Both the position numbers and the translations under genes were made by a program. The notes under the pieces are model-generated. The model had not been told where the DNA came from, did not search any database, and was given only the letters and a program-made list of their open reading frames with translations. Positions 226 through 48,985 of a DNA stretch of 64,000 nt are shown here, piece after piece (within the stretch, counting starts at the first letter, position 1; every line of letters starts with the position of its first letter). Source of the DNA: Acidobacteriota bacterium (GTDB taxonomy: Bacteria; Acidobacteriota; Holophagae; Holophagales; Holophagaceae); NCBI GenBank assembly GCA_016192145.1, contig JACPUT010000018.1, forward strand, positions 1-64,000. The letters are read 5' to 3'.

Positions 226-293
226 ATTGAGGCCTATACGTTAACTAAGCAACATCTCGAAAAACCGAGTAACCCGAATTTGGAGATTTCGTG

Positions 294-1307
294 ATGCGTG
301 CACACTGGTTGCTCTTCGTCGGAACCATCCTGGTCGCTCAAGATTTCGGCTCCGAACTCGGGGAATCAAAGGGTGTGAAGCGAGTCGGGATGGCAATTGA
401 CAACGACGTCAAAGAACTCAGCGGCGTCAGCGGAGATCGCTTCTACACAAACGGGGTCAGGCTTTGGGCTTTGACCCCGAAGGAACTCCCCTACTTCCTC
501 CCAGAAGGAATGCGAAATCGGCTCACAAGGAACGAAGATAACCAATGGAGTTCGGGTTGGGTTATTGGCCAACAGATCTTCACGCCCGAAAACATAAAAG
601 ACCCCAACCCACAGCCCAAAGATCGACCTTGGGGTGGGTGGCTGTATGCAGGTGGGATTGGGAGGTTCAAATCCAATCATCATTTGTATGAGGTGGAAAT
701 CACCGCAGGTGTTGTTGGCCCGGGGTCTGGTGGCCGCCAAGTCCAGTCCGAATTCCATCGGTTGATTCGTTCACCTCATCCAGAAGGTTGGGACAACCAG
801 ATCGTGAGCAAGCCCACGTTCCAAACCCGGTTGGATTACACCTACCTCGACTACATTGGTACGGTTTGGGGCCAAGTGTTGGAAGGTCATATGACCCTGG
901 GGATTCGCACGGGGAACGTGTTTAGGGACGCCCACGGAGGGCTGGTACTCCGATTTGGCAATCGACCCAACGTTGGTCCGAAAAATGATTCGGACACCCG
1001 TTACCAAATGATGGCCTCAACCTCGCAACCTGGAAGATGGGGGTGGTACATCTACACCCAATGGGGGATGAAGGCTGTCGATCGAAACCTATTGATCCAA
1101 GGAGAGACGCCGACCGGGAATCCAACCTTGGAACTCAAGACACAAGTTCAAGAGATGGCCATTGGTGCAGCACTGTTTATCCCCCTTACGCGGGCGCGAA
1201 GTCTTGAGTTGATCGCACGAAGAGTCCGCCGCACCGAGGAATTTGTGGGGCAACGCGGACCTCAGCAATACGGCACTATCTCCTTGGTCTGGCACACCCG
1301 GATTTGA
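294..1307 (+). CDS. lpxR: LpxR-family lipid A 3'-O-deacylase (DUF2219), outer membrane
   Basis: LpxR enzymes are outer-membrane beta-barrels that remove the 3'-acyloxyacyl group from lipid A. The family signatures appear in order: AIDND near residue 35, then GDRFYTNGVRL, QQIFTP, DRPWGGWLYAGG, GVVGPGSGG, and a histidine-containing stretch ending in GWDNQ. Length (337 aa) is normal for the family. The N-terminus MRAHWLLFVGTILVAQ is a plausible signal peptide. The start is a GTG-ATG doublet at 291/294. I prefer the ATG because GGAG at 282-285 then lies 8 nt upstream. A terminator-like hairpin follows 53 bp after the stop, so this is probably a single-gene unit. The catalytic activity is inferred from the family. 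Confidence 0.85.
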   Translation: MRAHWLLFVGTILVAQDFGSELGESKGVKRVGMAIDNDVKELSGVSGDRFYTNGVRLWALTPKELPYFLPEGMRNRLTRNEDNQWSSGWVIGQQIFTPENIKDPNPQPKDRPWGGWLYAGGIGRFKSNHHLYEVEITAGVVGPGSGGRQVQSEFHRLIRSPHPEGWDNQIVSKPTFQTRLDYTYLDYIGTVWGQVLEGHMTLGIRTGNVFRDAHGGLVLRFGNRPNVGPKNDSDTRYQMMASTSQPGRWGWYIYTQWGMKAVDRNLLIQGETPTGNPTLELKTQVQEMAIGAALFIPLTRARSLELIARRVRRTEEFVGQRGPQQYGTISLVWHTRI

Positions 1308-2257: not shown

Positions 2258-5200
2258 ATGACAAAGCGGCCAATTGGCAGCCAGCTTTTCCTGTCCCTTA
2301 TTTCGAGGGTCGGGCTCGCAGTTTCCAATGGGATGACTGCTCGCAGTCATGCCTTGGGGCTGGGCGGGGTGGCTATATTCCTGCTGCTGCCCTTATTGGC
2401 AACCGGTGCGAGGTCGCCACTTCTGACTAGCGGAAGGGGATCGACCCTCACGGGTTCCTCAAAACCATCTGCTGGTGTGGCAGCGCTCTCCACGAATTCA
2501 TTGAGGCCAGGTGCACTGGCTGTGGGTGAACTCCAGATTGTCGGAATGCAGATGGTTCTCCCCGAGGGAAACATTGAACTTCCCGAGGGAAGTCCCTTCG
2601 TCATCAAACCAAAATTCACGAACGGTCCCCGCCTTTTGGGCCTGGACGAATTGAACGCCACCTATGGGACGGGCCTGACGCTGTCCGGAACCTTCTCTGG
2701 CCCCGGGATGGGCGCATCCGATGTCTCGGGTACACCCGCCTCTGGGCTGAACATGCCTGCGATGACGCAGGAGGGGGACTACACGCTGTCCTCCGTGAGG
2801 CTGATGAAGGACGGGAAAGTCATCCTCGATGCAATGCCTTCATCCAAGGTGATCCGATGCCTGGGGCAGGTACTCATCTCAAACGTCACGTCCTCACCGA
2901 TGACGCTCCAAGAGATTCAAGCCGCCGGAATTCAGCTTGGCCCGAATAACTATGAGGCGAAGCGCTTCACCATGACCTTGGCTTTGGGCTCTCAGGAATT
3001 GACCCTGAAGGTCCCCGTTGCCATTCCTGTCTACAACGGGCTCCCCTCATTGTCGGATGAGTCCGTTTTCGGGCCGTTGGAAATCGTCGGAAGTCATGGT
3101 GAAAAAGCATCACTCGACATCACAGTAGTCGCGGCAAACATTCGGCCGCCCGTAGATAAGCTTCCCCAGTTTGACCGCCCCGGCGTCGCGCATGTTCTTA
3201 GGAACGCGTTCAAGGCACTGTTGGTGATCCCAGGGACGGTTGGGTACCTCCATCAGTTTTACAAGACCGATGTCGTGGTTCTGAACACGCTGCCTGAGGC
3301 TTCGCCGTATCGAGTGACCCACCTCAAGGCCAATTTCCTGGTGCCACCTGGATTGGATGGCCAAGCGGGAACAACAGATGACCCACTCGTGCTTGCCGCT
3401 CATTTGGGAGAGACGGCGAGCGCCGAGAAATCTCTGCTTGGACCGGATTCGCTTGGACGCCCTGGCCGCGGTGAGAACTGGGTCAATGGCGGTCAGAGCG
3501 CCATGGCGACCTACTACCTCGAAGGCATGAAGGAAGGTGCCTACCCCCTGGATTTCAAGATTGAAGGTCAGTTCGAAGGTGGAGACCTAGGGGAACCAAT
3601 CCCCATTCTGGGCACCGCGAGTGGCAAGGTCCTGGTTCGGAACCCCAACTTCAGCCTCGTGATGGTCCATCCGGACATCGTGCGCAAGGGCGAGACCTAC
3701 ACCTTGGAGGCACGGCTCACGAATACCACTGAGACGATTGCCAATGCTGTGAGCTTGACGATTGATCAAGCGCGATTGGCAAACGTCAAGTTGATCAGCG
3801 AACCGACGCAATCGGTCAATACGTTGGGACCAGGAGAATCTGCGTCCTTCAAGTACCAGCTCAAGGCCAAGGTGACCGGGGAAGTCCGTAGCGGATACCT
3901 GTACCTAGAAGGAAACGGATCGGCTTCGTATCAATTGAGTGTTGGGATCGGCGAACGGAACATCCGGCTCAACCCAGATACCTTGATCCTTCCCGACACC
4001 TTGAATGCTCTCCCTGGAGATCTCCGGGAAGCGATGTTGAAGGTCTTGGGCCAAGCGTATTCGATTGCTACGGCCAAAGGGGCTCAGCCCGCGGGTGTGC
4101 TTCCCATTCCCATGTCTGTGGTGACCGGCGAAATGGCCAACGGTCTTTCCGAACAGGGATTGTTCCTAAAGATGGGAATTGACCGCACGCGCGTCTGGTG
4201 GGACCTGTGGAAACTCTTCATGGAGAACCACGATCCCGGCTTCGATCAGCTGGTTCGCACCACCACCGCGGGGCGGGAATTAAGGGAAGTGTTCCTTCAG
4301 CGATGGTCATGGGCGGACCCTGCGCGCACCCTTCCGGATCGCTTGGGAGACATGTCGGCGTTTGGATTTGGTTCCAAGAACCGGGTCATCGTGGCCATTG
4401 AAGGTGGCGGCCAAGATCTGCAGGTGGCTGGCCAGGACGGCACTGGTGCGTGGCTGAGCAGTGCTTCAGGAATTCCATCGCTTTCCGTAAATGGCATGAC
4501 GTGGGGTGAAGGGTATGGCCAGCACCTTGCTTCCTGGGGCCTCCTCGCGGGGCAGTCGGGCCTGTTGGTGCTGACCAATCCAAGCAATGAGGTGAAATCT
4601 CTTCACCTTTCGGTGCTTGCTCCCGTGGCTGATGGCGGCGACGCCGTCCTGCGCCGTTATAGCGTGGACCTTGGAAGTACCGTCAAGGCTGTCCTGGCTT
4701 TGGGAGTCGGGGATGGGCTGCTCAAGACTTTCTCAGCCTCAGGTTCGCAATTGGGTGGCGTTTGGCCTGAAGACACGAAAACTATTTCTCCGGAGCCATT
4801 CCAAGCCCTTGGAGTGCACCGGTATGACCGAGAACTCTTCGGGGATGCGAATCCCTATGGCACTCAAGTCATGGTGCTGTTCAATCGGCCGGTGATGAAT
4901 ATTGACCTTCCTGGCGGCGAGGAGGGAGTCGCTGGAGCCCAAGCGCTCATCCAAGTCGAGGCCAATCGGCCTTGGAAGAAGACCATGCCGCCCAAATTGA
5001 ACGCGGGTGGGGATTTCGAACTGGATGGCAACGGGAATGTAGTGTTCCAAACCCCACCAGCTCCATTGACGCGACCGTTTCCGCGGATCGCGTCCCTGTT
5101 CCTCGAAAAGCCAGTCGGCCCCTACGTCGCCAGAACCTTGACCCTGTCCAGTGGTTGGAAAGATGCAAATGGCGGGTCACTAAGTGGCCTAACGACCTGG

Positions 5201-8200
5201 CCGATCACTTCGGGTTGGCTTCCGGGTGGAGCTGTCGTAAAGGGCAAGGTTAGGAAAGCTGACGGCACAGGCGTCCCGACTCAGTTGGAATACTGGTATC
5301 GCCAGCAGGTGGACAGCGTGGACTCGTATGACCTGAGCACAGGTCATACCTTTGTCGAAGAGAAATTAGACGACTACTTCGCCTTGGTCTCTAACGGATT
5401 TGCGACGGAGATCGACGGGACCTATCAGCTGGATTTTGTTCCGGAAGTCGTCTCTCCCTTGATTGGGCCCTTCATCCTTCAAGCGAAGGTCGGGCAAAGC
5501 CAAGCGTCGGCCGGTGCGGCTGTTCTCGGGAATGGCCAGACCATTCAGATGGACCTCGTCGTAGAAGGCGTTGGCACGATAGAAGGCTACGTCCTGGATG
5601 GCAACAATCAGCCCGTTTCTGGGGTGACCGTTCAAGGAATCCAGATACAGAACACGGTTTCATTCGCGACCGGGGGTGGGAGTTCCACGGGTGGAAGGTC
5701 GGTGACCACGGATGCGAATGGGTACTACCGGATTGAAGGTCTGAAGACGGGCGCCTTCTCTCTCCGTGCACTGAAGCAAGGCGTGGGTGGGCTCTTCGGG
5801 GTCGCCACCAGCGGCGCCATCGATCGAGATGGCCAGACGGTTCGCAAGGACCTCGTTCTGAAAGGGCGAGTGGGGTTCGTCAAGGTGCGCTTACTGGACC
5901 TGGACGGTACCTCCATGCTGAACCGCTGGATCCGACTTGGATTCAAAACGGGATTGGTCAACCGGACAACCACTTCAGCCATTGCTGACTGGGTCTATCC
6001 CGAAGAGCACAAGACTATTCAAGGAAGCGACTGGGTCACCTTCGCAAACATCCCCACGGGTGACATTCGGGTTTACACACCGGAGTTCCCGGAAGGATTC
6101 GCGACGACATTCGAGGGGTACCTAAACCCAGATCAGACACTCGAAGTCACCCTAAGGCGACTGTCTCCTGATGTGGTTGCAAAGGTACGAATCCATGTTG
6201 TCGATGACCAGGGAACGGCGATCCCGGGTGCCTATGTGCTCATTGGTGGGGCGGGTGTCGCGCCAGGTGGCGTAGAAAAATTCAACGCCCAAACAGATGG
6301 AGAGGGTTATTCGCCCTTCTTGACGCGGGTCGCCCCAGAGCGTGTTGCCGCTTGGGCGTACCACCCTTCCTGGAATGGTTCCTTCCCCGGCGAATCCGCC
6401 TTATTGGCGGGAGGCCAATCCTACACACTCACCGTCGTGATGCCCAAGAGGACTTCGCTCCAAGGCCGAGTCACGCGGGGGGACGGGACCCCCGTCCGAG
6501 ATGCAGTCGTGGCGATCCCCCCAATCTACAATTTCTCGACACCGGAAAATCGTGTTGTCCGGACGGATTCAAATGGTAGGTATCGATTCGAGTCCATCCA
6601 AACTGGCCGCGCATTCCGTGTTGCGGTGGTCGGGCCAGAAGGACTGACGGCTGCAAACCAAGAGATGCCGGCCACGACGGAAGGCCAGTCCCTCACCTTT
6701 GATGCAGTGCTGCCGGATGTCGGAACTTGCGAGGCGTTTGGACAATTGTTTGTAATGCAAGCCGATGGATCCAGGATTCCAACTTCGGGTTGGGTCGATA
6801 TTGAGTCCCAGGTCCCGGACATCGGTTATGGTGCCTACGGGTCTATGAACTGGGGCCTTCCCATCTGGAACACCCGCGCATCTGTTCAGACCCAGTTGGA
6901 CGGAAATTTTCGCGCCACGGGGCTCCCTAGCGGGCAATTCCGCATCACCGCCGGTAGAGAAAATGCCATCGAGGTACGAGTTGATGGTTCCTTCGAAAAC
7001 GGCCACGAAATTCGAAAAATAGATCTGGCCATTCGAAACACCTTCACTGCCGCGCTAAAGGGGAAGATCTATCAGCGTGATGGGCAAACCCCAGTCGCCA
7101 AGGGTGCTCGGGTACGGTTGCTGGGTACCAACGGTTCAGAACTCCAGGTGGAGTCCCAAGAGGAAGGGATCTACAAATTCCCCAAGGTGATCGTTGCGGG
7201 CACCTATCAAGTACGCGTGGAAGACCCTCAGACCGGCGATATCACGGTTGCCACCATTTCCATCAAGGACCAGGACAGCGTGATTCGAAACCTTCGGCTT
7301 TGGGGGCGTGGAAACCTCAAGATCAAGGTCCAGAACAGCCTTGGCCAAGCCCTGTCAGATGCAGTGGTCACCCTCCAGCATGGTCGAGGGCTCTTGCTTC
7401 AACCGGACGATCTGCCAAATCTCTCTCAGCGTTTACGCCCGGAACACCATGGGGAATTGCTTTTCGAGGACATGATCGAAGGATTGGTTTCGATTGAGGT
7501 CAAGGATCCCCTTGGGTTGGTCGGTCGTGGTTCCATCGAAATCCAGCCTGGAGGCGGCGATCGAGAAATCACCGTTCGGCTCCAGCCAGTGGGTGATGTC
7601 GTGGGTTCGCTCCGGAGGGCAGATGGCACCTTTGTGCCAGCTGGTCGAATCGACGCCTATTGGGTGGATAACAGTCAGCAGGAGCATTGGATTGGAACAT
7701 CTCCAACTTTCCAGGAAGGGGTTCAGGGGCGATTCATCTTCATCGGCCTCCCTGCTGGTGTCATCCGCTTGAGGGCCTGGGATCCCGATTCCCGCCAAAT
7801 GGGCGCCCTTTCTGTTCAGGTGATGGAAGGTCAGCAGCAAACCGTGGAAATGAGCACCCAGGACCTTGGGTCTGTTCAAGTAACGGTGCGGCTGAATGGG
7901 CAGCCCGTTGTTCGAGCTGGAGTCGTTCTTCATGCCTCTACCGTGGTTGCGGAAGGTATCGGTGACTTTGAGGCCACCACCGACGACCAAGGCCGGGCTC
8001 AATTCATGGTCCCTCCCGGAAGCTTCACCGCGCATTCCGTAGACCCCCAATCGCTCTCCACGGGGGATTTGAGATTCCTGCGTACCCCAAACCAGGCACC
8101 GCTTGAGCTGGCATTGGATCTCCAGCCTGTGAAATCTCTAACCGTGAGGATTCAGCCGCCAACGGGATGGGTCGGGACCGTGCTTGATGGCTGGAAGGTA

Positions 8201-11200
8201 ATGGACCTGAACACAGGTCGAACCGCTCATCTGGATGGTCAAAATCAAGGGCTCTTGCAGGATCTGACGGTCGGCGTCCATGCGTTGGATGTTCAAGATG
8301 CCTTGGGCTTCACTCGGGGTACGTTCAACATCCTTGTCCGCCCGGATGGTCCACCCCTCCAGGCTTCGATGATCCAAGCCTTGCCGCTTGGATCTCTTAA
8401 GATCCGCATCCTGGATGCGGAAGGAGCCCCGGTTCCTTTTGTGATGCCTTCCTTGTCAGATGGCGTGGATCTCAGCCATATCCCTCTCTTCACGGATGGA
8501 ATGGGCGAAGCGCTAGTATTCCCCGTTCTGGGGCGGCGTGCCACGGCGACATATGGAAGTGTGCGTGCCAGATTCGAGGTCACTCGTGAAGGCGAAGTTG
8601 CGGAAGTCCTTCTCCAATTGGCGCCAACGGCAAGCCTGCATGGCGTTGTTCGAGATGCAGAAGGTCATCCAGTGCCCTACATCGGTGTGCAGGTTTGGTC
8701 CCAAAGTTCTGGGGATTGGCGGGCCGACTCCGCGACGGATGCGAACGGAACCTACGTGGTCCATTCCATTCCCGTTGGACCGACCATACTCCTCCAAGCG
8801 AAATCGCTGGATGGGCGCGCCTCCAGTGTCCAACTCGTTTTCTTCAATCAGCCCGAGAATCGGCAAGTCGACCTTGTAATTCCCGTCCTGGGTGGAATTC
8901 GGGCCCGATTCTCTGATCCCCTCCGACCGGCCATGCCGCCGATGACACTTCAAGTCCTCGCTGCCGACGGTCATTTGGTCGCCAGTCAACCGCTGGATGG
9001 GTTGGGTACGGCCGAACTTTCTGGCCTTCCTGCATTGCAGGATCTGACGCTTCGGTTGGTTTGGGATGATCGAAGGGTTGTGGCTTACACCTCCACCATT
9101 CAGATCCCTGGCGCCGGTCAGGTGAAGACCATCGAAGTTGTGCTGGATTCGTTCGTGAATTTGAACGGTTGGACCCTCGATACCCTGAACCGCAAAGTTC
9201 CCATGACGGTCATGCTTCAAGATGCGGCCGGGGGCGAACTGGATCGCGTGACGACGACGGGTGACATCTACGATCCGGATCAGCCCACCTTTGCCTTCAG
9301 GTACCTGCATGTAGGGACGGAATATCACCTTGTAGGCCTTAAGGAAGGCACCCAGGTCCCCGTGGCCTTCAAGGCGTTCACACCGATGGGTGGATTCCTG
9401 AATGTGACCACGAACTTGGTCGCAGAAGCCGAATCTGCGCTCCATGTAAGCTTCCGTACTGCGAGCGGGTCGGCTGCGAATGTGATTGATCCCTTCGTGG
9501 TCTACCCAAATGGCGAATCCCTGCAGCTCCAACCCAAGGGCGACGGTACGTTCACGGCTTCTGTTCCTGCCCGTGTACCGGTCTCGGTCAAAGTGTTCAA
9601 TTATGTCCTTGGTGAGGATCTACTTCTCCCGATTGGGGGTGTCACCTCACCTGACTCGACGCTTGAGGCCGAGCTGGTGCTTCCGGATCTTGGCATCATC
9701 CGGGGCCGAGTGCTCGGTGCCGATGGTGCTCCCCTCGCCGGAATCGTGAAGCTATACGACGGTCAGAAACTTCGTCAGTCCAAAACGGTACTTGGTGATG
9801 GGGTGTTCGAGTTCGGCCAAGTCCGAACCGTGTTGCCCATGGCGATTTCAGTAGTCAATGGTTTCCAAAACGCCCTGGCCATAGCGCAGTTGCTCAGCCC
9901 GGGGGAGATCCAAACTCAAGACCTGAAGATGAATGGATTATCGGACGTGCGGGTGAAGGTAAAGACGGCGGATGGAATCGGGGTCCCCGACAAACTCGTC
10001 TTCGTCCTTCTTGCAGATGGAACTAACGTCGCTGCGCAGCGCACGGACGCTACCGGGGTGGCTCGATTCGTGGGAATGCCCGCTTCCAGGAGCCTGAAGA
10101 TCACCACAACTCTGGGACAGGGTTATGTCTCCAAGGGGCTCACCTTGACCTTTGGAAGCCCAGAAGCCTTGGTGGAATTCACCGATCTACCCCCCACGAC
10201 CATCTCGGGGCGGATCCTGCGTGCCAATCCGGCCCTTTCTTGGCCTGAAGGGACCCGTTTGTTGCTGACCAATGGCGTCAGCTTGGACCTTCCGCTCAAC
10301 CCAGACGGCACCTTTGACACCCAATCGCAAGTTTCATTGAATAGTCGCGAAATTCGAGCGACGGTCTTGGTATCCGGCGTGGCCGTGGTTTCTAGATCTC
10401 TTACCCCAGTGGAAGGGGGGGTGACCGAAGTAAATCTGGCAGCTCCGGTATTCGGAAGCGTGCGGGCCCGTGTGTTGCAGGCAGGTGTGGCCGTTGATGG
10501 TGTGCCCGTGGAGATGGATCGACACGTTCTTGGCACGACGGATCTGGACGGGTACACGCAACCCAAAACATCCTTGGCTGGAACCCATGAACTGGTGGCC
10601 ACGAAGGGAACCGAGGTCGCGTGGACTCAGGTTTCCATCGCAGAAGACGGCCAAGCCCTGACCGTGAACCTACCGTTGACCAATGGTCAGGTCACCCTTC
10701 CGGTTTCGCTCCTGATGGATCGCCTCGGAATCACCATGCGCATTTCCGACCAGGATACTCCCCCCCTCGCATGGGGCGTGGATGGGACCATGAGTGACGC
10801 TTTCTGGCCGACAGCTGCGACCTGGCGCCGCGCTGGCCGGAGTTTCGCTTGGGATGAATCCCGTGGAGACATTGCCCTGACCAGGGTGTTCACCTCAGTC
10901 GGCTATGGTGTGCGTCAAGAACTCGTATTCAAAAATTCAGGATCCACAGCGCGAAAGGTTCGGTTCCGCCTTCGTACCGGATGGACACCCGATGCGAACA
11001 CGATTGGAACCCCCGGCCAGCTTGGTGGTGCGCATTTCCCCAACTACTCGCAAAGCCTCGTCTGGGGTCGAGGTGAATTCGTACCCACCGGTATGACCGA
11101 TAACACCTACTCAGGACAATTGGATTGGCCCGAGTTTGACCTTCAGCCCGGCGAAACCAAGGGCCTCTGGATCGGCCACCACCGTTACGGTTTCCAGCAA

Positions 11201-14923: not shown

Positions 14924-14966
14924 AAATGCGTGAAATTTTGAACCGAATTCTTGCGGTGGTTGCGTG

Positions 14967-17900: not shown

Positions 17901-20900
17901 GTCGGCGCCATCTTGGATGCCAATGGCTATTTCGTCGCGACCTTGGCGCCTTCGGAAGGGTCCTACCCCATTCAGGCCACCGCCGTGGATGTGGCGGGCA
18001 ACTCCGGGTCGGCCACCCGTACGATTCTGGTGGATCGCACGGCTCCGGTGATCACCTTAAGCCAAGGCATCCCTGCGCTCGTCAATACGGACGCTCTGGG
18101 GCTGGGCGGGTTTGTCGATGATTTGAAGGCAACGCTTACGCTGAACGGCAAGGCCGTGGTGTTGGATCCGGCGGGAAAATTTATGGTCACGGCGTCCCTT
18201 CCTGCGGAAGGGGTGAATACGATTTCCTTTGAAGCCACTGACCTGGTGGGCAACGTCGGAAGCCTCTCGCTCTCCACGTTACGAGACATGGCGCCTCCGG
18301 TAGTTAAAATCCTCACCCCCCAAGACGGCTCTGGCACCAACGCCCACACCCTCCTTGCGAAGGGAACCTTGGACGATGTTTCTGCTTCTCTGACGGTGCA
18401 GGGCACGGCGGTCAGCGTGGGAAGCGATGGAACCTGGGAGACCACGGTGTCAGCCGCGAAGGAGGGTGTACTCTCAATCAAGGCAGAAGCCACGGATACA
18501 GCCGGGAACAAGGTGAAAGCGGTGGTATACGCCGCATTCGACTGGACTCCGCCGACGATCGCTTGGGCGAACCCCACGCCGGCTGAGAAGTCCCAACTGA
18601 TTTCCCCGGACGTGTCCGCGGCAGTGGTGATCTCTGAACCAGCAATCATCGCGATCAATGGCCAATCGGCACGCATGGAAGCCAACGACGCGGTAGGTGC
18701 GCCCTTCATCGCCCACGCCGATGTCCGACTCCAGGAAGGCCACATGGTCATCGAGGCAGAAGCCGTCGATCGCGCCGGCAACAAGGCTTCGATCTTCCGG
18801 CTCCTGGATGTCGGGCTTACCAAGCCCACCCTTCAAGTCAGCGCTCCGTCCTTCCTTCCCGATGGAACCTACAGGACGGGAAACCCCGGAGTCCAGCTTT
18901 CAGGCAAGGTGGTTGCCGATGACCTGCTCAGGCCCATCGCCCTGGCCTTGAACGGAGAATCCATTTCTTTGGATTCCGCGGGCAATTTTAGCGTTCCAGT
19001 AACTCTCCAAGTAGGTTTGAACCCGGTGCACTTGGTCGCCACGACTTCGTTGGGCCAGAACGTGTCGAAGGATTACACCATTACCCGGCTAGCGGGAACT
19101 GGCGATTCAGGAGATCCCAAAACCTTGGGGGTCCAGATTGACTGGCCTCTTGATGGATTTGCGACCGGCTCTGCCTCCATGGCGGTGCGCGGCCGCGTTC
19201 GCCAGGCGGGTCTCCAGGTTCAGGTCAATGGGGTCACCACCGTCGTTGACCCGTTGAGCCTCACTTTCACTCAAAACCTGACGCTGGTGCCAGGGGCCAA
19301 CACCATCCAAGCTTTCGCTCAAGCCACAGATGGCCGGACCACTGCGGCCCAAGTCACTGGACGCTATCTGCAACCGGGAAGCGCTTCCTACCATTGGGAC
19401 CTTCCGGGCAATGGCGCTTCGGTAAAGGTTCGCCAGATTCAAATCACTGGGCAGGCGGATCAACCAGGAATCATCGGGATTGTGGTGAATGGCGTGCCCA
19501 TGTCCCTTGCAGATGGGCGGTTCACCGGGACGATCACCCTTCCTTCCAAGGGGCGCAATGCGCTCCTGATGGAAGTGCGAACGTTGGCGGGCGAATCTCG
19601 TACTGAACGTCGGGATGTTTCGTTCCAGCCTGAACTTCCCCGTATTTTGCTATCAGCCCCAGATGCTGCCCGGCCTGGACAGGAGATCACCATTGGAGTC
19701 CAAGCCGATGGGGGCACCCAACTGCAGGCTGTAGACCTTTCCTGGGACGGTCGGCTTCTCGGTCGCTTGGTCACGCCCTTCGCCCCGATAAAGGCCACCA
19801 TCCCGGCGGATGCGTTGGTAGGAAGCAAATTGCTTGTTGAAGCGCTAGCGACGGACCTCCAGGGCGAACAGGTGACTGCTCGCACCTCCGTCACTGTGTA
19901 TGGTCAGGGCGCCCTCCTGGTGGAAGCCTTTGACGATCGGACGGGCCTTCTGCTCAAGGAAGGTGTGGCGACCGTGGAGGGTGGCGAATCTCGGCCGCTC
20001 GATGCTAGCGGGCGGGCGACCCTCGCGACGGCCCTGCCTACTTCTTGGGTTCAAATCCAGAAGGCGGGGATGGTGCCTGTTTGGCGTTTGGCCGGTCTAA
20101 AGGTCGGTGGCGTGGAAGCAGTCGTCGACGCTCGACTCACGCCGATGGATGCGGCCCAATCGGCCGGCCCTGCTTCCTTCGTAGGCACATTCGCCAAGGT
20201 GCTGACCCTCACACTGCCATCGGGCACTCTGCCTCAAGAAACGCAGGTTTCAGCCACTCCTCTATCCACCCAAGGCCTTCCGGCCTTGCTACCTCAAGGC
20301 TGGTCTGCGGTCTCGGCCTGGTGGTTGGATGCGCAGGATCAGGCATTCCTCACCCCGAGTGGGACAGGCTCCCTGTCTAGGGGCGCTCTGGCGGTCCTTC
20401 CAGCGGATACTCGTTACACCTGGGTTCGGTGGGATTCCGGCCGCCACGAGTGGGTGACCCTAGCCGCGGGTCTAACTTCGGGGCAGTTGGGGTCCTTGCC
20501 CATTCCTACCACCGGTGGGTATGCCCTAATCGTTTCCGACCTCGGTTCGGTGGCCCCCCCCAGCCCGGAAGTCGGCGTGGGCCTCCAAGGCTATCTGGGT
20601 GCTGCTTGGCGTGATGGCTTGCAGGCTGCTGGTTCTGTGAATCCTTCAACCCTGCCTACGGTTGAGGCCATTCATGGGGCTAGGGCTACGGCGGAGCTGC
20701 GCCTCGGTTTCGCTAACGGCGATCCGATCCCCAGCGGCAATGTGCTCCAGGCGGACCTCCTCGAAAGCTATACCCTCGTCAGTGCCGGGGTTATTGAGCC
20801 CAATGGGACCACCCAGGATGCAGTGGCTTCCCGGTGGATGCTCGAAGTGGTTGATGGTCAACCTCAAGTAACTGGGGCCGGCGATGGTTTGGGGCTTCGT

Positions 20901-23900
20901 TTGCCCCTTCGGATGTCTCGCACCTTTGGTGAAAGCGACCTCGTTGAAGGCCGGATCGTCGTGGGCTTCTATCACGACGGTGTTCAGTTGGCTCAAGGAG
21001 GGTCTGTACTGATGGGGCCACAGGGGGGAACCCTGGCTCAAGATGGGGTATCCCTCCAGTTCGGCACGGGCGCTTTTTCGGGCAGTACTCTCGTCCGTCT
21101 CACCGTGGATCCAGGGGATCCGTCCGCACTTTGGCCCGAAGCAACTGGACTCGGTACGATTGCGAAGTCTTTCCAAGTGGATATCGTTGGACAGCTTCTA
21201 CAAGGGCTCCAGCTAGGTGTGGCCGATCTGGGTACGCCCGCGCAGGTGCCGATCCTGGTGCAGCGGCGGGTGGTTCAAGGCCAGCGCGTGGTCGTGGCCG
21301 TAGGTTCCTTGGTGCAAGGCAATGGCGTGTGGGTGTTGAAGGTTGCCGAAGGTGGCAATCCCGTCTTGGATGGCGGCAGTTTCGCGGTGTTGGTCCCCAA
21401 CCAAAGCTGGGATTGGGTCTCTGGAGTAGCCGTTATGGATCCTGGGGTGGCCCAAGGGCTTAAGGCACGCATGGGCGCTGCCAAGACCTTGCGACTCGCA
21501 CCTGCCATTGCGGGTCAGGCTACACCGGTGGGCGACGCGATCATTGTGGCTGGATATCTGCCGGGTGTTTCAGGTGGGGAAGGGCGCTTTGCGGTGCCCG
21601 TATTCACATCCGCGGGTCCCGTGACTTTGCAAGGTCAGCGCTGGGACCTAGGGGTGACCGGTACGCTTGGTGTCCCTGTTCCTTCGGTAGGCAATCAGCT
21701 GAACTTGGCGACGGTTCCCTTTAGGATCGTGACCTTGCTTCCCTATGAAGGCTTTGAGGTCGGCACTGGCTCCGTGATGACTCTCCTTCTCTCAGGTCCA
21801 GCAGATGCGAACTCACTGGCGAATGTTCACCTTTACTTTGAACAAGCGACACTTTTTCAGCCGTCCACCAAGCAGGGCAAGGGTGCAAAAGTTCCGGCGG
21901 CATCAAAAACGAAGCGAGTGCCTTCTACGGGCAAGGCCAAAAAGCAGGTGCTTTCCCTACAGGATCCGGCGCCGGTGACCTTGGTCGAGTTGCCTATCCA
22001 CCGAAACCTATCACAGGATGGGAAGACGTTGTTGGTGGTGGCTGATCAGCCCTTGCCGTTGGGAAGCTCTTTCCAGCTTGTGGTGGATGGGCTCCAAGGG
22101 TTGAGTGGTGAAGTCGCCCCGAAGGTGATCCGACGCTTTCATACATCCGCGATCCCGACTAAGGGTTCCGTGGACTTCAGCCGAATCAAGCTGACCTACC
22201 CTGATGAAGCCTTCAATATCACGGCCACGATTCCCGTGGGGGCTGTGCCATCCAAGGCTGTGGTACAGATCGAAGCTTCCGCGATGGGCTCCGTGGGGAC
22301 AGGCACCATGGCTGAGGATCGGGACCTTGAGTTCACCCTCAAGGCTGCCCTTGGTGAACGATTGAAGGTCCGGGTCCAGCTTTACAGCGGCGAAGTCTTG
22401 GAAGGTTGGATTGGACGGTACGAAGCCAATGACGGTTCCGGCCGGGTCGTGATGGGCATGGATGGAGGAAGGGTTGAAGCTCCTGATGGAAGCGGGGCCG
22501 CAATCTCCCTTCCTGAAGGCGCGTTGGATGGGCCCGTGGAACTCCGAGTGGAACTGCTCACTGGAGTTCCTGACGAATTGGACCCCGAAGTTGCCCAACG
22601 CGAAAAAGTCGTTTCACGAATCCGGCTTTCTGGCGATCGCTTGGTGGAGTTGAAGAAGCGTCCCGTGATCGAGATGCCTGCCCCGGTCAACCCCAGCAGC
22701 CTTCAGCATGAGGCGGGCCTGGGGCCCTACGGGATCTTCTATGAGGTCAACGGATTTGAAGCCGATGGAACCCCGGCCGTCTTTTATGAGCTGAATGACA
22801 CCGCAGTTGTTGCGGAGGGGCGGCTCAGGTCCAAGGGAGGACTGCCGGATCTAGAATTAGGCACCGCCGCCAGCCTGCCCATGCCCAGGGGCCTGTCACG
22901 GGCACTAAAGGGGCGGGATGAATCCAGCGGGGGAGCCACCCCCACCAAGTCGGCCATCCAAAGGCCGGCGGTATCGAAGGAGCGCGCGTCTTTCGCTGCC
23001 TTCGGTGGCTTCGGGCTGTTGTCCGCCCTGAGCATCGATAGCGGGGAGCACTATCTCTACGGTGGTGCCTACATCACGGTGGGGGACCAGCCCCGTCAAC
23101 CGGCGAAGGGGGCGTATATCTTCGCATCGGCCCTCGGCGGATCCACCCCCAAGCGGGCGGGGCAAATGCTGGGCCGGACGAACCAACTCGGTCGTTACAT
23201 GTTCGCCAGTTCGCTTACGGGCGAACTGATACGCGGCGGGGCCCGGCTCCTGGGCGTGGATGCGGACTACGGAGTCACATCTACTTCGGTCGGCGTGCTC
23301 GCCTCGGGCAGCGGCGTGTTCGGCTCTGTGCTTCAGGCCTACCCCATGGATTTCTATGTGGACCCTAGCTTCATCGGAGATCGGGTCCCACCCTATGCGG
23401 AGCTGGGGTTCGAAGTGAAGGAAGCCTCGGGGAGCTTCATTCCCGTGGAGACGGCCAAGCCCGGCGACCGGCTCTACGCCGTGGTGAGGGCCAAGGACAA
23501 CAAGACCCCCGAACTGGAACTGAACTTGGACCTGTCCGTGGATGAGCGCCGACACCCGGCCTGTGCCTCCGGCTGCGGGGCGCATCCTGATTGGAACAGG
23601 ATGGAGGCCTTGGATCGGACGGATCAGCGGGGCCTCATCGGGTATCGCTTCCCCCTCGACGTGCCCTCGGTGGGGAGCCACGCCGTGCGCGTCCTCGCGA
23701 CGGATGTCGCGTGCAATCGGACGGAGGTGAGCCGGGAATTGGTGGTGTTCGCCTTCGAGGATGAGCCTGCGGAAATTCCAGGCCAGGCCCCGACGGCGAC
23801 CCTGAGGGTGGATCCGGATGCCTCGGCCACGCGTGCGGATTCTGCGGTGGGCCTGCGGTTTTCGGAACCCGTGACGGGTCTGGGGGCGGGAAGCCTCTTC

Positions 23901-26900
23901 CTGGAGTACCAGGAAAACGGCGCGTGGGTTCGCGAGACCGTCCGCATCTATGGTCCGGGCGGGGAATTGTCGTCGGGGCAACGCGCAGGGCAGGTGTTCT
24001 TCCGTTTGGGGGGGCGGCTGCGGGTGGGGACTAACTACCGGGTCAGTTGGACCGGGTCGGTCCAGGATGGAGAAAGCAATGGCCTGAAGGGCGAGTTCCC
24101 GACGTTTAAGACGGTGGGATACCGCGTGCATCCGACCCAGTCTGTGGAAGGTAAGACCTTGGGTCAGATCGTGGCCCTTGGGAGCCGGGCCTTCGTAGTG
24201 GAGACGGATCAGGCTACGGGAAGGACTAAGCTCGGGGAGTGGTACGTGAATGGAGGTACCTGGACCTTCCTCGGCGGATTCGGGCCCGGTTGGAATCAGG
24301 ACTTCGATGGGCATGGCATCGATAGCATCTCGGTGCATGAGGCGGTGCCCTTGGCGCCGGGGAACAACCAGCATCTCTTGCTGGTTACCACGAGTCCGCG
24401 TTACGGGGAGCATGAGCACCAGGCGGTGCTGTGGGGCTATAGCGTGTGCGCCAACGGGAATCCCCAACTTGCCTTCGCGGTTAGCCTTGGACCTGGGGCC
24501 AGCGGGTACAGCCCCAGCGTGGACTGCCGGGACGGCCTCATCGCGGTGGGGCGCCTGACCAGCTCGGTCCTGCTGATTGATGTGCAGAACGCGGTGATGG
24601 ACTGGTCTCAAATGAGCGCGGATCAACGATCCCTCGTGACCCGGCCCGGAGGCGCAAATCAGCGTGCGATCATTCAGTCCTTCTGGTTGGCCAACCCAGA
24701 GGACAAGACTTCGGGCCTGGGTGTGCTCTTTCCGGGCACCCACAAGATGGTTGGCCTGCTAACCAACCCGGCCGGGAAGGATCCCGCCTTCAACGTGGCG
24801 GTGGGCTATTCCCAGATCGACGGCAGCGAAGTGTCTCCGCTGTCGGGGCTTTCGACTTCGATCCACCCCATCGACGGTGCCATTTACACTCCGCAGCCTT
24901 CCTTTGTGGGCGGAGGCGCGTATGGCACGCCGGATTCGCGGGCCCACGAGACGGAAGGCCTGAATCCGACGATGGGGCTGAACCCCTTTCGGGTGATCTC
25001 GAACGCGACAGTGATCGAAAATGGCGAGGCGCGGCAGGCCACCCTGGTGGTGGGCTTGCACGTGGATCAGAAGAGATTGATCGTGGTGGACGTAAGCGAC
25101 CCAGCTTTGCCGAAGCAAATTGGGGAATGGTCGGCCCCTGCAGGGATGGAACTGGTGCGGAGCCGTGCAAATTTCCATTGGGACCGAGAGCTCGGGGTGT
25201 TGGGGCTCCTTGCTCGCAAGGAGGGCCAACCTCATTGGCTCGCATTCGATATTACGGAACCTTCCAACCTTCGCATCGTGGCCGATATTTTCCAGGAAGC
25301 CCAGAGCGGTGTTCTGCAAAACGGGGTTTGGCGCTTCACTCAAGTTCAAGGGGTATTGACGGTGGATCTGGGGTTGGGGGGCGATCCGTTGGTAGCTAGA
25401 AGAAGTGGGGGGCAGAATATCCTACCGGGGAGGGATGGGAAGCGAGGGATAGCAAGTCTTGCTCCTACCGTGGCGGTTTCGGTGACGGCATGCAGCAGCC
25501 CCGTTCGCATCATGGCTCCGGATACTTTGGTCTTGGACGACGAACCATCGATGAAGGTATTCAAGGAAAAGGTCCGTGCGGTAGTGATGAAAGGTGCCAA
25601 CGTCGATGAGGAGAAGACCGCTGCGGCCGAATTCCAATGGCAGGCCTTCTACTGGCATAAAACGGAGCAAGGTACGGACTACACGCTGAACTCTAAGGGC
25701 CAATGGGTCCAAATGCCCGCTCCGCCCTTCGTGCTGGAGGAGAGCTTCCCTCAGGCGGGCACCACCGCCGCCGCCAAAGGTGGCGCGTTCCCAGACGTGG
25801 ATTCCTTCTTTCGCATCAAGCTGAACGATAACTCCCGAAGAGGAGATCCCTTGCTGCAAGGTACGGACAGCCTCAGCGTGATACGGGGAGGCTACATCAC
25901 TCTCAAAGTTCAGGTGCCGGGCCTCGGGTCCGCGACGGAAAAGATCAAGGTGATCTCGATCGATCCTCCGAAACGTGCTGTGTTCGAGGAGTGCTCAAAG
26001 AGTGTGGATCCGTCCTACCGGGATGTGTTCCTGAAGATCCTATGCAAAGAATCCCAAGGCCAATTCTGGAATCGACCAACCCTCAAATTGGCCGCCAATG
26101 TGACGAAAAAAACCGGGAAGAAATCCTTCAGTTGGAAGCGGGAATGGACCCAGACCCAAGGCTTCACCGTCATGAACACCAGTCATGGAGATGGGGGCAT
26201 GGGCCTGACCCAGGTCACCAAGGGATATGGCCAGATCTCCGATCTCGTGCGTTCGAATGTCCTATGGAACTGGAAGGACAACATCCGCCTGGGGACCGGG
26301 ATCCTGGAGGAGAAATTGGCCTTCACCCGGAATCAATACCGGGAGCTTGAGGAATGGTTGAACCGGTTCGCCCTTCCGGCCCTGAACGAATACCGGAAGA
26401 GCCAAGGCCTACATGCCCTGGATGGAATTTCACTCCCTCCCCTTTCGGATGAACAAATTTTGTTCAATGCCATTCGTGGGTATAATGGTTGGCAAAACAA
26501 AGACTTCTCATATCCTCTGGATTTCCGGCCAGACGAAAAAGATTTGATCGGCATTAATCGAGGGTTCGAATTCCTTCCTGGTTTCGTGCCTCTCCCCAAG
26601 CCCACGCCCTACCAGGCTGTTCCTTCGGGCTCCTGCGCCTACTACGTAGTGGACAAAAACGGGAAGAAACGAAAGATTACCGAAAGCCCCTGCCGGACAC
26701 CCTTCGACTACACGGCTAAGGCAGTGGTCCAGATCTTCCCCGTCAGCGATCCCGCCATCAAGCGGGGGATCGTGATCTGGCTGGACAAGGAATCCGAGCC
26801 CTGGTTAAAGCGCAATGGCTACAAGACAAATCCAGCCTACCCCTTCCAGGTGCTCAACAAGAACGGGGAAGACTGCACCGAGAATCACACTCAAGACGAC

Positions 26901-26963
26901 AAGATCAAGGCCATTCTGGGCGAAGCGGCCGTGCTCAAATCCAAGAAAAAGCCCAACAAATAA
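14967..26963 (+). CDS. Giant exported protein (about 3998 aa): vWA-like head, Ig repeats, C-terminal lytic transglycosylase-like domain
   Basis: The signal peptide covers residues about 1-27 (WLLSLWVTLGVLAPIAA). An acidic/His cluster lies near 94-115, followed by a vWA-like region containing GLVIVVSDGWG. From about residue 438 to 1285 there are ten Ig-like repeats of about 85 residues, each opening like APVITLDTP and closing like ATDAAGNSG. More divergent Ig modules follow. SbsA-like segments lie near 2255 and 2942, a Lys-rich linker near 2300-2330, and a propeller-like stretch with LIVVDVSDPALPKQIGEW near 3370. The C-terminus has SLT-type motifs: CKESQGQFW (Glu at about 3695), GGMGLTQ (about 3744) and RGYNGW (about 3836). 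The start is a GTG-ATG doublet at 14964/14967. Peptidoglycan cleavage is inferred from the motifs; the remainder looks structural. Confidence 0.85.
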   Translation: MLSKHNWYRWLLSLWVTLGVLAPIAAHDHSCLPAAGRRWAVLVIEDHPGMREVVWDPAFTSTAFQGAFRPDHRYALRTTGTPALIDLGCWDESFHYGEDHCGEHEGEDDSERDDHSGGSVVNVSWTGDRKGVILKIGGKSTWLPMLGVWNSKGTPAGTYRGAYLNWLLQNRPTTPSIPKETRWQRLQRGANALATQLLTRSGGAPEFRIEGIGASGRLLIPPGEGLPAAQGAVSRMAPAAKGYALKDSLNGVVDMVRDLKTRGGCQPGLVIVVSDGWGLGSSCATGSIYENQAQYPVLQQQASAIAATAQAAVWAWDVEGAGLWNGVLATKGMGLSFDGDAVTSLQASIKSWMQGMGQPPQVRLSLDQPALTRFSQATLTITVDRPLSSATLNGQPISIAALTTQLPQTLKEGLNTFTVTVQTPCGTNQASLTVTLDSSAPKILLDQAPPALTNQTTLRLSGKVDDPASILTLNGVLTALDPQGRFAMDASLAIEGDNPLAFRAVDAAGNEGRLELHVQLDSLAPVITLSSPEEGLITRDEHLDVVGHVDDSHAQVQVNGQVVTVKPDGVFTAPVTLPEGPMEIRVTAADVAGNQGVATRHLTVDRTAPRITLDQSIPVLVAKAQIHLAGSVDDPSATFMLNDQPIALNAQGQFTVDVPLVEGPNPLSFRATDAAGNEGALEGSTTRDMTPPVLMLVTPAEGQRVNTAQVQLVGQVDDPMAMVTVNGQAVVPVGGAFSFTATPPEGPFSFAVMAVDPAGNNTAAIRNVLIDRSGPVISLVRPVPSLTNQLVLVLQGTVNDPTASLTLDGIAVPLDGNGAFSVEVALAEGANTFHFAALDPTGNPGALDAATIRDTVAPVITLDTPANGLMTNQGTLLVQGRVDDASARFTFNGNGVTLDAQGGFSATWALPLNGINNLTLQATDAAGNSGSLGIAVLRDAVPPKVTLTAPAEGFSTRAATIQVEGQVDKPNVQVSVNGVGAILDANGYFVATLAPSEGSYPIQATAVDVAGNSGSATRTILVDRTAPVITLSQGIPALVNTDALGLGGFVDDLKATLTLNGKAVVLDPAGKFMVTASLPAEGVNTISFEATDLVGNVGSLSLSTLRDMAPPVVKILTPQDGSGTNAHTLLAKGTLDDVSASLTVQGTAVSVGSDGTWETTVSAAKEGVLSIKAEATDTAGNKVKAVVYAAFDWTPPTIAWANPTPAEKSQLISPDVSAAVVISEPAIIAINGQSARMEANDAVGAPFIAHADVRLQEGHMVIEAEAVDRAGNKASIFRLLDVGLTKPTLQVSAPSFLPDGTYRTGNPGVQLSGKVVADDLLRPIALALNGESISLDSAGNFSVPVTLQVGLNPVHLVATTSLGQNVSKDYTITRLAGTGDSGDPKTLGVQIDWPLDGFATGSASMAVRGRVRQAGLQVQVNGVTTVVDPLSLTFTQNLTLVPGANTIQAFAQATDGRTTAAQVTGRYLQPGSASYHWDLPGNGASVKVRQIQITGQADQPGIIGIVVNGVPMSLADGRFTGTITLPSKGRNALLMEVRTLAGESRTERRDVSFQPELPRILLSAPDAARPGQEITIGVQADGGTQLQAVDLSWDGRLLGRLVTPFAPIKATIPADALVGSKLLVEALATDLQGEQVTARTSVTVYGQGALLVEAFDDRTGLLLKEGVATVEGGESRPLDASGRATLATALPTSWVQIQKAGMVPVWRLAGLKVGGVEAVVDARLTPMDAAQSAGPASFVGTFAKVLTLTLPSGTLPQETQVSATPLSTQGLPALLPQGWSAVSAWWLDAQDQAFLTPSGTGSLSRGALAVLPADTRYTWVRWDSGRHEWVTLAAGLTSGQLGSLPIPTTGGYALIVSDLGSVAPPSPEVGVGLQGYLGAAWRDGLQAAGSVNPSTLPTVEAIHGARATAELRLGFANGDPIPSGNVLQADLLESYTLVSAGVIEPNGTTQDAVASRWMLEVVDGQPQVTGAGDGLGLRLPLRMSRTFGESDLVEGRIVVGFYHDGVQLAQGGSVLMGPQGGTLAQDGVSLQFGTGAFSGSTLVRLTVDPGDPSALWPEATGLGTIAKSFQVDIVGQLLQGLQLGVADLGTPAQVPILVQRRVVQGQRVVVAVGSLVQGNGVWVLKVAEGGNPVLDGGSFAVLVPNQSWDWVSGVAVMDPGVAQGLKARMGAAKTLRLAPAIAGQATPVGDAIIVAGYLPGVSGGEGRFAVPVFTSAGPVTLQGQRWDLGVTGTLGVPVPSVGNQLNLATVPFRIVTLLPYEGFEVGTGSVMTLLLSGPADANSLANVHLYFEQATLFQPSTKQGKGAKVPAASKTKRVPSTGKAKKQVLSLQDPAPVTLVELPIHRNLSQDGKTLLVVADQPLPLGSSFQLVVDGLQGLSGEVAPKVIRRFHTSAIPTKGSVDFSRIKLTYPDEAFNITATIPVGAVPSKAVVQIEASAMGSVGTGTMAEDRDLEFTLKAALGERLKVRVQLYSGEVLEGWIGRYEANDGSGRVVMGMDGGRVEAPDGSGAAISLPEGALDGPVELRVELLTGVPDELDPEVAQREKVVSRIRLSGDRLVELKKRPVIEMPAPVNPSSLQHEAGLGPYGIFYEVNGFEADGTPAVFYELNDTAVVAEGRLRSKGGLPDLELGTAASLPMPRGLSRALKGRDESSGGATPTKSAIQRPAVSKERASFAAFGGFGLLSALSIDSGEHYLYGGAYITVGDQPRQPAKGAYIFASALGGSTPKRAGQMLGRTNQLGRYMFASSLTGELIRGGARLLGVDADYGVTSTSVGVLASGSGVFGSVLQAYPMDFYVDPSFIGDRVPPYAELGFEVKEASGSFIPVETAKPGDRLYAVVRAKDNKTPELELNLDLSVDERRHPACASGCGAHPDWNRMEALDRTDQRGLIGYRFPLDVPSVGSHAVRVLATDVACNRTEVSRELVVFAFEDEPAEIPGQAPTATLRVDPDASATRADSAVGLRFSEPVTGLGAGSLFLEYQENGAWVRETVRIYGPGGELSSGQRAGQVFFRLGGRLRVGTNYRVSWTGSVQDGESNGLKGEFPTFKTVGYRVHPTQSVEGKTLGQIVALGSRAFVVETDQATGRTKLGEWYVNGGTWTFLGGFGPGWNQDFDGHGIDSISVHEAVPLAPGNNQHLLLVTTSPRYGEHEHQAVLWGYSVCANGNPQLAFAVSLGPGASGYSPSVDCRDGLIAVGRLTSSVLLIDVQNAVMDWSQMSADQRSLVTRPGGANQRAIIQSFWLANPEDKTSGLGVLFPGTHKMVGLLTNPAGKDPAFNVAVGYSQIDGSEVSPLSGLSTSIHPIDGAIYTPQPSFVGGGAYGTPDSRAHETEGLNPTMGLNPFRVISNATVIENGEARQATLVVGLHVDQKRLIVVDVSDPALPKQIGEWSAPAGMELVRSRANFHWDRELGVLGLLARKEGQPHWLAFDITEPSNLRIVADIFQEAQSGVLQNGVWRFTQVQGVLTVDLGLGGDPLVARRSGGQNILPGRDGKRGIASLAPTVAVSVTACSSPVRIMAPDTLVLDDEPSMKVFKEKVRAVVMKGANVDEEKTAAAEFQWQAFYWHKTEQGTDYTLNSKGQWVQMPAPPFVLEESFPQAGTTAAAKGGAFPDVDSFFRIKLNDNSRRGDPLLQGTDSLSVIRGGYITLKVQVPGLGSATEKIKVISIDPPKRAVFEECSKSVDPSYRDVFLKILCKESQGQFWNRPTLKLAANVTKKTGKKSFSWKREWTQTQGFTVMNTSHGDGGMGLTQVTKGYGQISDLVRSNVLWNWKDNIRLGTGILEEKLAFTRNQYRELEEWLNRFALPALNEYRKSQGLHALDGISLPPLSDEQILFNAIRGYNGWQNKDFSYPLDFRPDEKDLIGINRGFEFLPGFVPLPKPTPYQAVPSGSCAYYVVDKNGKKRKITESPCRTPFDYTAKAVVQIFPVSDPAIKRGIVIWLDKESEPWLKRNGYKTNPAYPFQVLNKNGEDCTENHTQDDKIKAILGEAAVLKSKKKPNK

Positions 26964-26989
26964 CGACCAGTCTTGAAGGAGGAGGAATC

Positions 26990-27988
26990 ATGAAAACGTT
27001 GATGCTTCGATGCCTGATGGGCCTGACCTTGATTCTGGGCGCTCCAGGGCGTGGGCTCCAGGCTCAAACCGTCATGGAAGATGAAATCCATTACGGGAAG
27101 GAACACCAGGTGCGAATCAGGAACAACTTCCCCGAGGTGTTCATTTCCGTAGAAATTAAATCTGGGGAGCTAATCAAGAAAATCACGAGGGAAGATATTC
27201 GCAAAGACCTCAAAACCCGCCGCGCCCACTCACACATTTATGAAGATCAGAACGCGATCACAAGGTTCCAAATTCTCGATTTCAAAGATGAAGAACCTGG
27301 GGCGGATCGATACTTGGCCTTCGCTGTCCAACTTAACGGACCCTCTCGATTCCCCCAGTTTTCAGTTTACACATGGAACTTGGATTTACCCGATAATAGC
27401 CTGATCGCATGGGATGGGTTTTTTGCATCCAGTATCGGATCAAGCGGATTAAGTCCGAGCTGCGATTATGTCTACTACGAGGTAGAAACGAACAATAACA
27501 TTTTTTCTCCCGAATTACGGTTTGTGAGGATCCAGCTTGAGGCTTGGCAGGACCCGAAGGAGGTCGAGGACGGTCTAGTGTATACATTTCCAGACGAATA
27601 TGACGTGAATTGGTCTGAAGGTGTCCTGAACTGCACCATTGCGGAGTACTCGATCGAAACAGCCTCGAATGGCCATGAGGTGCTTCGGATGAAGAAAAAA
27701 TTCACAGAAACAATTTTTGATTGGGAAGATGCACGAGCTCCGGATCCCGCCTATGAATCCATTCATGACGTGGTTTTCGATCTCACCGAGGGCAAGTATC
27801 TGGTGGGGCCTTTCAACCCGGTGAGCGTGGGTGGTGTAATCCTTAAACCCGCAAAGGCCCTGCCCACTAAAGGCCTCAGTCTTCAAGGCTGGGACAGTTG
27901 GCGCAATCGACAACAGCAATCGGCCCATCGTGCCAAATCCAAGAAAGTGCGAAAGCTCAAATCCAAGTCAAAGGTGGCGAAGTCCTGA
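26990..27988 (+). CDS. Exported 332-aa protein of unknown family, third gene of the giant locus
   Basis: A strong ribosome-binding site (AAGGAGGAGG) precedes the ATG, 26 bp after the preceding stop, so co-translation with the giant transglycosylase-like protein is likely. Residues 1-26 form a clear signal peptide ending near GLQAQ. The mature part is acidic and aromatic-rich. It has four cysteines or fewer, no HExxH or other catalytic motif, and a very basic tail from about residue 310 (KSKKVRKLKSKSKVAKS). The giant protein upstream ends in a similar Lys-rich run (KSKKKPNK). I recognise no family. Position and export make it a candidate periplasmic immunity or partner protein of the C-terminal peptidoglycan domain. 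This is inference; no sequence match supports it. Confidence 0.8.
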   Translation: MKTLMLRCLMGLTLILGAPGRGLQAQTVMEDEIHYGKEHQVRIRNNFPEVFISVEIKSGELIKKITREDIRKDLKTRRAHSHIYEDQNAITRFQILDFKDEEPGADRYLAFAVQLNGPSRFPQFSVYTWNLDLPDNSLIAWDGFFASSIGSSGLSPSCDYVYYEVETNNNIFSPELRFVRIQLEAWQDPKEVEDGLVYTFPDEYDVNWSEGVLNCTIAEYSIETASNGHEVLRMKKKFTETIFDWEDARAPDPAYESIHDVVFDLTEGKYLVGPFNPVSVGGVILKPAKALPTKGLSLQGWDSWRNRQQQSAHRAKSKKVRKLKSKSKVAKS

Positions 27989-44788: not shown

Positions 44789-44963
44789 TCGTGTCTCCAA
44801 TAAAGAAGTGGTTCCCGAAGGAATTTGAACCGAGAGTATCCCATTCACACGAGGTCCGGCGTTAGGAACGATTGTGTAACTCGACCTACCCGAGGTAAAA
44901 ACCCGGCCAGTCGGGGGCGCCCCTCCGGAACCATCTGATAGCCTGTGACATCCCGAATCCCAG

Positions 44964-48885: not shown

Positions 48886-48957
48886 CCGAGCAGGCCGACC
48901 GCTCGCGTTCGCAGTCCGCACAAGGGAATCGTCCATTCGGACGGTGGATTGTCCCCG

Positions 48958-48963
48958 TATACT
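48958..48963 (+). promoter_or_regulatory. Candidate -10 element, TATACT
   Basis: TATACT lies 28 bp before the ATG of the VPS10-like gene, in the context TATACTGGGGCACC. A near copy (TACACTGGGGG) sits 30 bp before the SPFH gene. No convincing -35 hexamer is visible at 16-18 bp. Confidence 0.4.
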
Positions 48964-48985
48964 GGGGCACCTTTCCGGAGTGCCC

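Follow-up and report, generated by a model that had tools for sequence, protein, structure and literature searches.

Why would a bacterium carry, side by side, two genes that each encode an exported protein of about 4,000 residues? This question is raised by a locus in a 64-kb stretch of acidobacterial DNA (hereafter the window), which is the start of contig C18 in a genome of 3.8 Mb and whose relatives, Geothrix fermentans DSM 14018 (G007) among them, are Holophagaceae. An earlier interpretation made from the DNA letters alone (the sequence-only reading) had seen in it a surface or fibre-like structure with an enzymatic tip. In our analysis, the locus is best explained as a polymorphic-toxin system in which a giant companion and a giant carrier are combined with a tip/immunity cassette, a reading to which we give a probability of roughly 0.7.

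Layout of the locus

The locus comprises three genes on one strand, none of which has an internal stop codon: giant 1 (P0001; positions 2258–14923, + strand; 4221 aa, ATG start), giant 2 (P0002; 14964–26963, +; 3999 aa, GTG start) and P0003 (26990–27988, +; 332 aa, ATG start). No overlapping frames of similar length were found at the three genes, and chance is excluded because full-length relatives of the giants occur across the phylum. The N-termini of all three proteins were read by eye as Sec signal sequences. In these respects, the sequence-only reading, which had described two uninterrupted giants and a 332-aa third protein with export signals, was borne out. Its gap of 26 bp between giant 2 and P0003 was also correct, and its gap of 43 bp between the giants holds if counted to the ATG that is the second codon of giant 2, the distance to the GTG being 40 bp. 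The ATG of P0003 is preceded by AAGGAGGAGGAATC, a strong Shine-Dalgarno sequence.

Shortly upstream of the giants, at 291–1307 (+), is an LpxR-type lipid A deacylase (PF09982, 1e-61); the region further 5' is out of view because the contig begins at base 1 of the window. A 195-aa ORF without an export signal (1420–2007, +) has LpxR on one side and giant 1 on the other, and gave weak matches only, to DUF4407/DUF3597. Elsewhere in the window are a 1218-aa protein with a CarboxypepD_reg domain (41582–45238, −), which is probably a TonB-type transporter and is one of many such CarboxypepD_reg proteins in this genome, and a Sortilin/BNR-repeat protein that is also large (1104 aa; 48839–52153, +). 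Lys/Arg-rich C-terminal tails were noted in giant 2, P0003, the OmpA-type protein of genome G024 (L055:16045-17352) and the giant 1 of G059 (L063:1492-16590). No match to PADLOC anti-phage models was obtained.

Architecture of the two giants

Both giants contain the repeat families that the sequence-only reading had named. Giant 1, the exported companion, carries CarboxypepD_reg/SdrD_B-like repeats, with five stretches matching CarboxypepD_reg (PF13620, 3.4e-44). Its N-terminal core (aa 151–690; 2708–4327, +) is conserved in the phylum and was used for one family alignment (A2). An AlphaFold model of this core predicted tandem Ig-like sandwiches followed by a helical bundle (pLDDT 63.8), and Foldseek returned generic Ig-like matches only (TM ≤ 0.25).

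Giant 2, the proposed toxin carrier, has homologues in relatives and contains Ig-like repeats that match Glucodextran_B in at least 12 stretches (PF09136, 5.6e-113), plus Big_13. These tandem repeats form a stalk at approximately 16041–19643 (+), with a period of about 84 residues (the motif recurs every 83–85 aa). Their copy number differs between relatives, repeats being absent from the aligned positions in G024 and G007. The conserved carrier body (aa 1490–2650; 19431–22913, +) was used for a second family alignment (A1). It contains a weak ZU5-like match (E 0.007, which falls short of the cut-off); a ZU5 autopeptidase was ruled out, as there is no CxH motif. A second carrier segment (aa 2651–3460; 22914–25343, +) is less conserved (21–54% identity); its last part is homologous to the region ahead of the tip in relatives, and the alignments stop at aa 3455–3464. 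RHS/YD repeats (the cocoon) were found in neither P0001 nor P0002.

Comparison of the giant 2 N-terminus of the window with those at L073, L074 and L070 revealed two styles: the carriers of G024, G059 and G062 start with a lipobox, and those of the window, G007 and G028 with a cleavable signal plus an extra module of ~350 residues. The carrier may therefore be either lipid-anchored or surface-held. In G024 and G051, the giants are separated by a gene for an OmpA-type outer-membrane protein, of which G059 has a barrel-only version; with strong homologues in these three genomes only, it was rejected as an obligatory third component. In G322, the gene between the giants encodes a parvulin-like periplasmic foldase (PpiC/SurA-type, by eye; G322:C8:205958-206803, L111), and its position suggests that folding of the giants in the periplasm requires assistance.

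The two giants form one system

The two family alignments were searched in 396 Acidobacteriota genomes. The A2 core was found in 43 genomes and the A1 core in 35, with both present in 31 (Fisher p 5.7e-32), and the co-occurrence persisted without the window's own family (Fisher p 3.2e-26). Among 77 genomes of the order, homologues of giant 2 were found in seven; these seven also have giant 1, as do two further genomes with fragmented assemblies (hypergeometric p 1.5e-8). The genes are also linked: in 18 genomes, 19 A1–A2 core pairs share a contig at distances of 10.6–26.6 kb, and G059 joins these with the start of a giant 2 on its giant 1 contig. Of the 31 genomes that have both cores, 19 have them on one contig. 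At all seven phylum-level loci examined (G138, G125, G425, G127, G391 and two in G322), the giants adjoin on the same strand, in either order. Genomes that appeared to have giant 1 only were observed to have a giant RHS frame adjacent to it (G140, G410, G250, G408 and G116). Next to giant 2 in G209, G149, G344 and G078 is a large frame in which no similarity to giant 1 could be detected, and the giants of G279 are unlinked. The co-occurrence and the adjacency support the supposition that giant 1 and giant 2 are one system.

The third gene is variable, with P0003 found in one of the 77 genomes of the order, and so the conserved unit consists of the two giants only, rather than of the three genes that the sequence-only reading had grouped together. 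That reading had counted separate occurrence of the three genes in relatives as evidence against a single system; co-occurring homologues of the giants are indeed present in Acidobacteriota, and the third gene acts as an exchangeable cassette.

Neither the giant pair nor its conserved companion is described in the literature that we searched. Giant 1 is nearly always found with giant 2 and may act as an adhesion, surface assembly or export partner. Beyond Acidobacteriota, a non-systematic search returned only a remote giant 1-like protein, an Ig-like protein of 2986 aa whose core is of the giant 1 type (L163; A2 E 1.6e-26) and which is encoded on a plasmid of Candidatus Thiodictyon syntrophicum (NZ_CP020371.1). 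Its gene belongs to an operon-like run that also encodes an S8 peptidase and a CarboxypepD_reg protein, and the protein is possibly a relative of giant 1 outside the phylum.

Exchange of the giant 2 C-terminus

Polymorphic toxins are recognized by a conserved carrier, non-homologous tips, established toxin domains and displaced cassettes (PMC3482391). In the relatives of giant 2, a conserved N-terminal carrier is followed by non-homologous C-terminal tips. The body of the window's giant 2 has 40–67% identity to those of G024 and G007, and similarity falls to noise past approximately residue 3460–3500. The tip in G024 is a VanY-type D-Ala-D-Ala peptidase (PF02557, 1.2e-7) and that in G007 a DUF900 alpha/beta hydrolase (3.6e-5). 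The DUF900-like frame of G007 (L061:308-1379) ends just past the AHSMG nucleophile elbow, near a contig end, and this tip may be short or interrupted. Tips of other relatives matched Phosphodiest (G138, 1e-15), Lipase_GDSL (G279, 4e-13), a Tle1-like phospholipase (G139, 1.5e-34), WHH/colicin-DNase (G379), DUF900 (G250) and, below threshold, a Tle3-like hydrolase (G104). No recognisable toxin was found at the end of giant 2 in G322, G391, G127 or G365, and for many relatives the assembly is a draft in which the tip is truncated. The loci of G028, G051, G059 and G062 are cut off by contig ends.

The carrier in G125 continues into an RHS core (2.7e-69), PT-HINT (8e-20) and Tox-GHH (1.3e-9). RHS repeats were confirmed in G125, G105, G117, G298, G379, G109, G424 and G081, and are also present in the giants adjoining giant 1 in G410, G250, G408 and G116. 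The Holophagales members have no RHS cocoon, and those of their tips that could be identified are envelope hydrolases. RHS proteins elsewhere in the order are separate frames of at most ~2,400 aa among the matches listed; the window's own genome has a separate RHS-repeat protein (G000:C18:464029-465432, in a frame of 1329 aa) on the same contig, unlinked to the giants. Established toxin domains were found in relatives (PT-HINT with Tox-GHH, WHH, Tle1-like), and none was detected in the window's tip. The fusions in which relatives join the carrier with RHS, HINT and recognized toxin domains, along with the unrelated tips, indicate a polymorphic toxin, and the giant 2 family has the main hallmarks of that class at the level of sequence. 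Direct computation shows the pair, its linkage, the exchange of tips and the occurrence of established toxin domains within this carrier family.

These results bear on the view that the locus builds mainly a surface fibre or adhesin, in which the giants would co-assemble into a long appendage for attachment or biofilm formation, with a remodelling enzyme at its end and gene 3 as an accessory surface protein. Long Ig-like and CarboxypepD_reg arrays are what such an appendage would have, and surface anchoring fits the lipobox N-termini of some carriers (G024, G059 and G062) and the OmpA-type gene that separates the giants of G024 and G051. A long Ig-like stalk that holds the tip off the cell is compatible with a fibre and with a toxin. 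However, a fibre leaves unexplained the unrelated C-termini among close relatives, the foreign composition of the tip and the genes next to it, and the RHS-HINT-nuclease toxins on the same carrier. With the tip swapped for unrelated enzymes in this way, we consider it unlikely that the locus is mainly a surface fibre, as the sequence-only reading had proposed.

The tip of giant 2 in the window

The variable C-terminal tip of the window's giant 2 (25851–26960, +) is lower in GC, and no homologue of it was found elsewhere. GC declines from 0.60–0.63 to a tip value of 0.537, and P0003 is at 0.494; this fall is milder than that in G024, where the body is at 0.684, the tip at 0.304 and the next two exported ORFs at 0.294 and 0.277. 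The earlier expectation of an enzymatic tip was upheld insofar as giant 2 ends in an enzyme-like region. A lysozyme/SLT-like motif chain (ES...GGMGLTQV...NIRLGTGIL...AIRGYN; 26049–26486, +) has the motif order of SLT transglycosylases, with the catalytic Glu-Ser and the GxxGLxQ, N-x3-G and AYN elements present, and its first-to-second motif distance exceeds the usual SLT spacing. The pattern written for this chain, which was partly chosen and loosened in spacing after the tip had been seen, matched 0 of 300,000 shuffles, and in ~0.9 million aa it matched only the window's tip and two true SLT domains.

The tip gave no match to Pfam, NCBIfam or PHROG families or to PDB sequences, and no homologues were found in phages, plasmids or viral contigs. 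An SLT assignment by Pfam, NCBIfam, PHROGs, PDB, hhalign and unfiltered hmmsearch was at noise level, PF01464 gave no significant match, and single-sequence AlphaFold returned no usable fold (pLDDT 35). We think that the tip is probably a lysozyme-fold peptidoglycan hydrolase, and hold this with modest confidence only, because the spacing of the pattern was loosened post hoc and the standard profile comparisons are unsupportive.

P0003 and the genes behind other tips

P0003 is an orphan: it gave no match, to a known immunity family or otherwise, and no homologues were found in plasmids or viral contigs. The ORFs found 3' of the tips in several relatives are orphans too, and each tip is followed by different ones. 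Those behind envelope-hydrolase tips (in the window, G024 and G139) look exported, the small ORF after the Tle1-like tip of G139 having a lipoprotein-type signal. The two small ORFs of G024 were rejected as kin of one another and as kin of P0003, since their similarity did not exceed that of shuffles. Behind the GHH tip of G125 come a 149-aa ORF and, after it, a displaced RHS-HINT copy that bears a different tip (L105:15676-18654). This displaced segment is a classic sign of toxin-cassette exchange; no displaced tip cassette was found in the window. Because of its position, export signal, foreign composition and orphan status, and by analogy, P0003 is likely a periplasmic immunity protein, a candidate assignment of similar strength to that of the tip.

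Alternatively, gene 3 may protect nothing, and the giants may deploy offensive or predatory lytic enzymes against other species or substrates without any immunity. Envelope hydrolases do make up most tips in the window's family, and no curated immunity family was found. Such enzymes would not account for the orphan, AT-rich, small exported ORFs that directly follow unrelated tips in several genomes, and the RHS/HINT nuclease tips with their next ORFs and displaced cassettes are a polymorphic-toxin signature. We therefore regard a purely predatory hydrolase as quite improbable.

Comparison with known systems

The periplasmic effectors of type VI secretion systems (Tae, Tge and Tle classes) cut peptidoglycan or lipids and are accompanied by exported immunity proteins. 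The tip of G139, which matches a Tle1-like model, resembles these effectors, but here the carriers are Sec-exported giants, and no T6SS adaptor domain was seen. CDI systems (CdiA/CdiB, T5SS) also combine a giant exported stalk and an exchangeable C-terminal toxin with downstream immunity, which is putative here. Unlike them, the present locus has an Ig-like stalk and a giant companion, and neither a TPS secretion domain nor filamentous-haemagglutinin repeats were detected in the window's giants.

RHS polymorphic toxins of the Sec/T2SS type (Zhang et al. 2012, PMC3482391) have in common with this family a large Sec-exported carrier, an exchangeable C-terminal toxin, HINT and RHS (here in the relatives), small orphan genes downstream and displaced cassettes. 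The present family differs from them in having a second conserved giant nearly always nearby and a very long Ig-like stalk, and in its Holophagales members, which lack RHS and whose identified tips are envelope hydrolases. That the locus encodes a TcdB/TcaC-like complex, with giant 2 as an RHS/SpvB-type toxin chaperone exported via the Tc route and giant 1 as an A-like component, is highly improbable. The large secreted proteins, giant partner, RHS in relatives, and ZU5-like and propeller-like parts do recall the description of that class (PMC3482391), but giant 2 has neither an SpvB domain after its signal peptide nor the CxH autopeptidase motif, both giants of the window lack RHS, and giant 1 is Ig-like.

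Proposed mode of action and significance

In the polymorphic-toxin reading that we prefer, export, delivery by contact, killing activity of the tip and immunity are predictions from sequence, and the probability given above applies to the reading as a whole. Both giants would leave the cytoplasm through Sec, with giant 2 built as a signal peptide, a long Ig-like stalk, a conserved body and an exchangeable terminal toxin. On contact with a neighbouring cell, the stalk would present the tip at the envelope, where the tip, as a predicted SLT-like hydrolase, would cut the neighbour's peptidoglycan, and P0003 would shield the producer and its kin. Envelope-acting tips would need access only to the target periplasm, and this is possibly why the Holophagales form has no RHS cocoon; the relatives with nuclease tips keep theirs. 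More tentatively, the giant Ig-like companion and the giant carrier may constitute their own export and presentation apparatus, an undescribed class of polymorphic-toxin delivery that takes either RHS-encapsulated cytoplasmic nucleases or naked envelope hydrolases, the Holophagales members being cocoon-free as their targets lie in the envelope.

If the polymorphic-toxin reading is true, an unexplained pair of ~4,000-residue proteins in a common and poorly understood phylum becomes a weapon system that can be tested. Carriers with and without an RHS cocoon occur side by side in one family, and the role of the cocoon, in protecting or in delivering cytoplasmic toxins, would therefore be directly testable. 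The locus family would also supply new enzymes that cut peptidoglycan and lipids, together with their candidate inhibitors.
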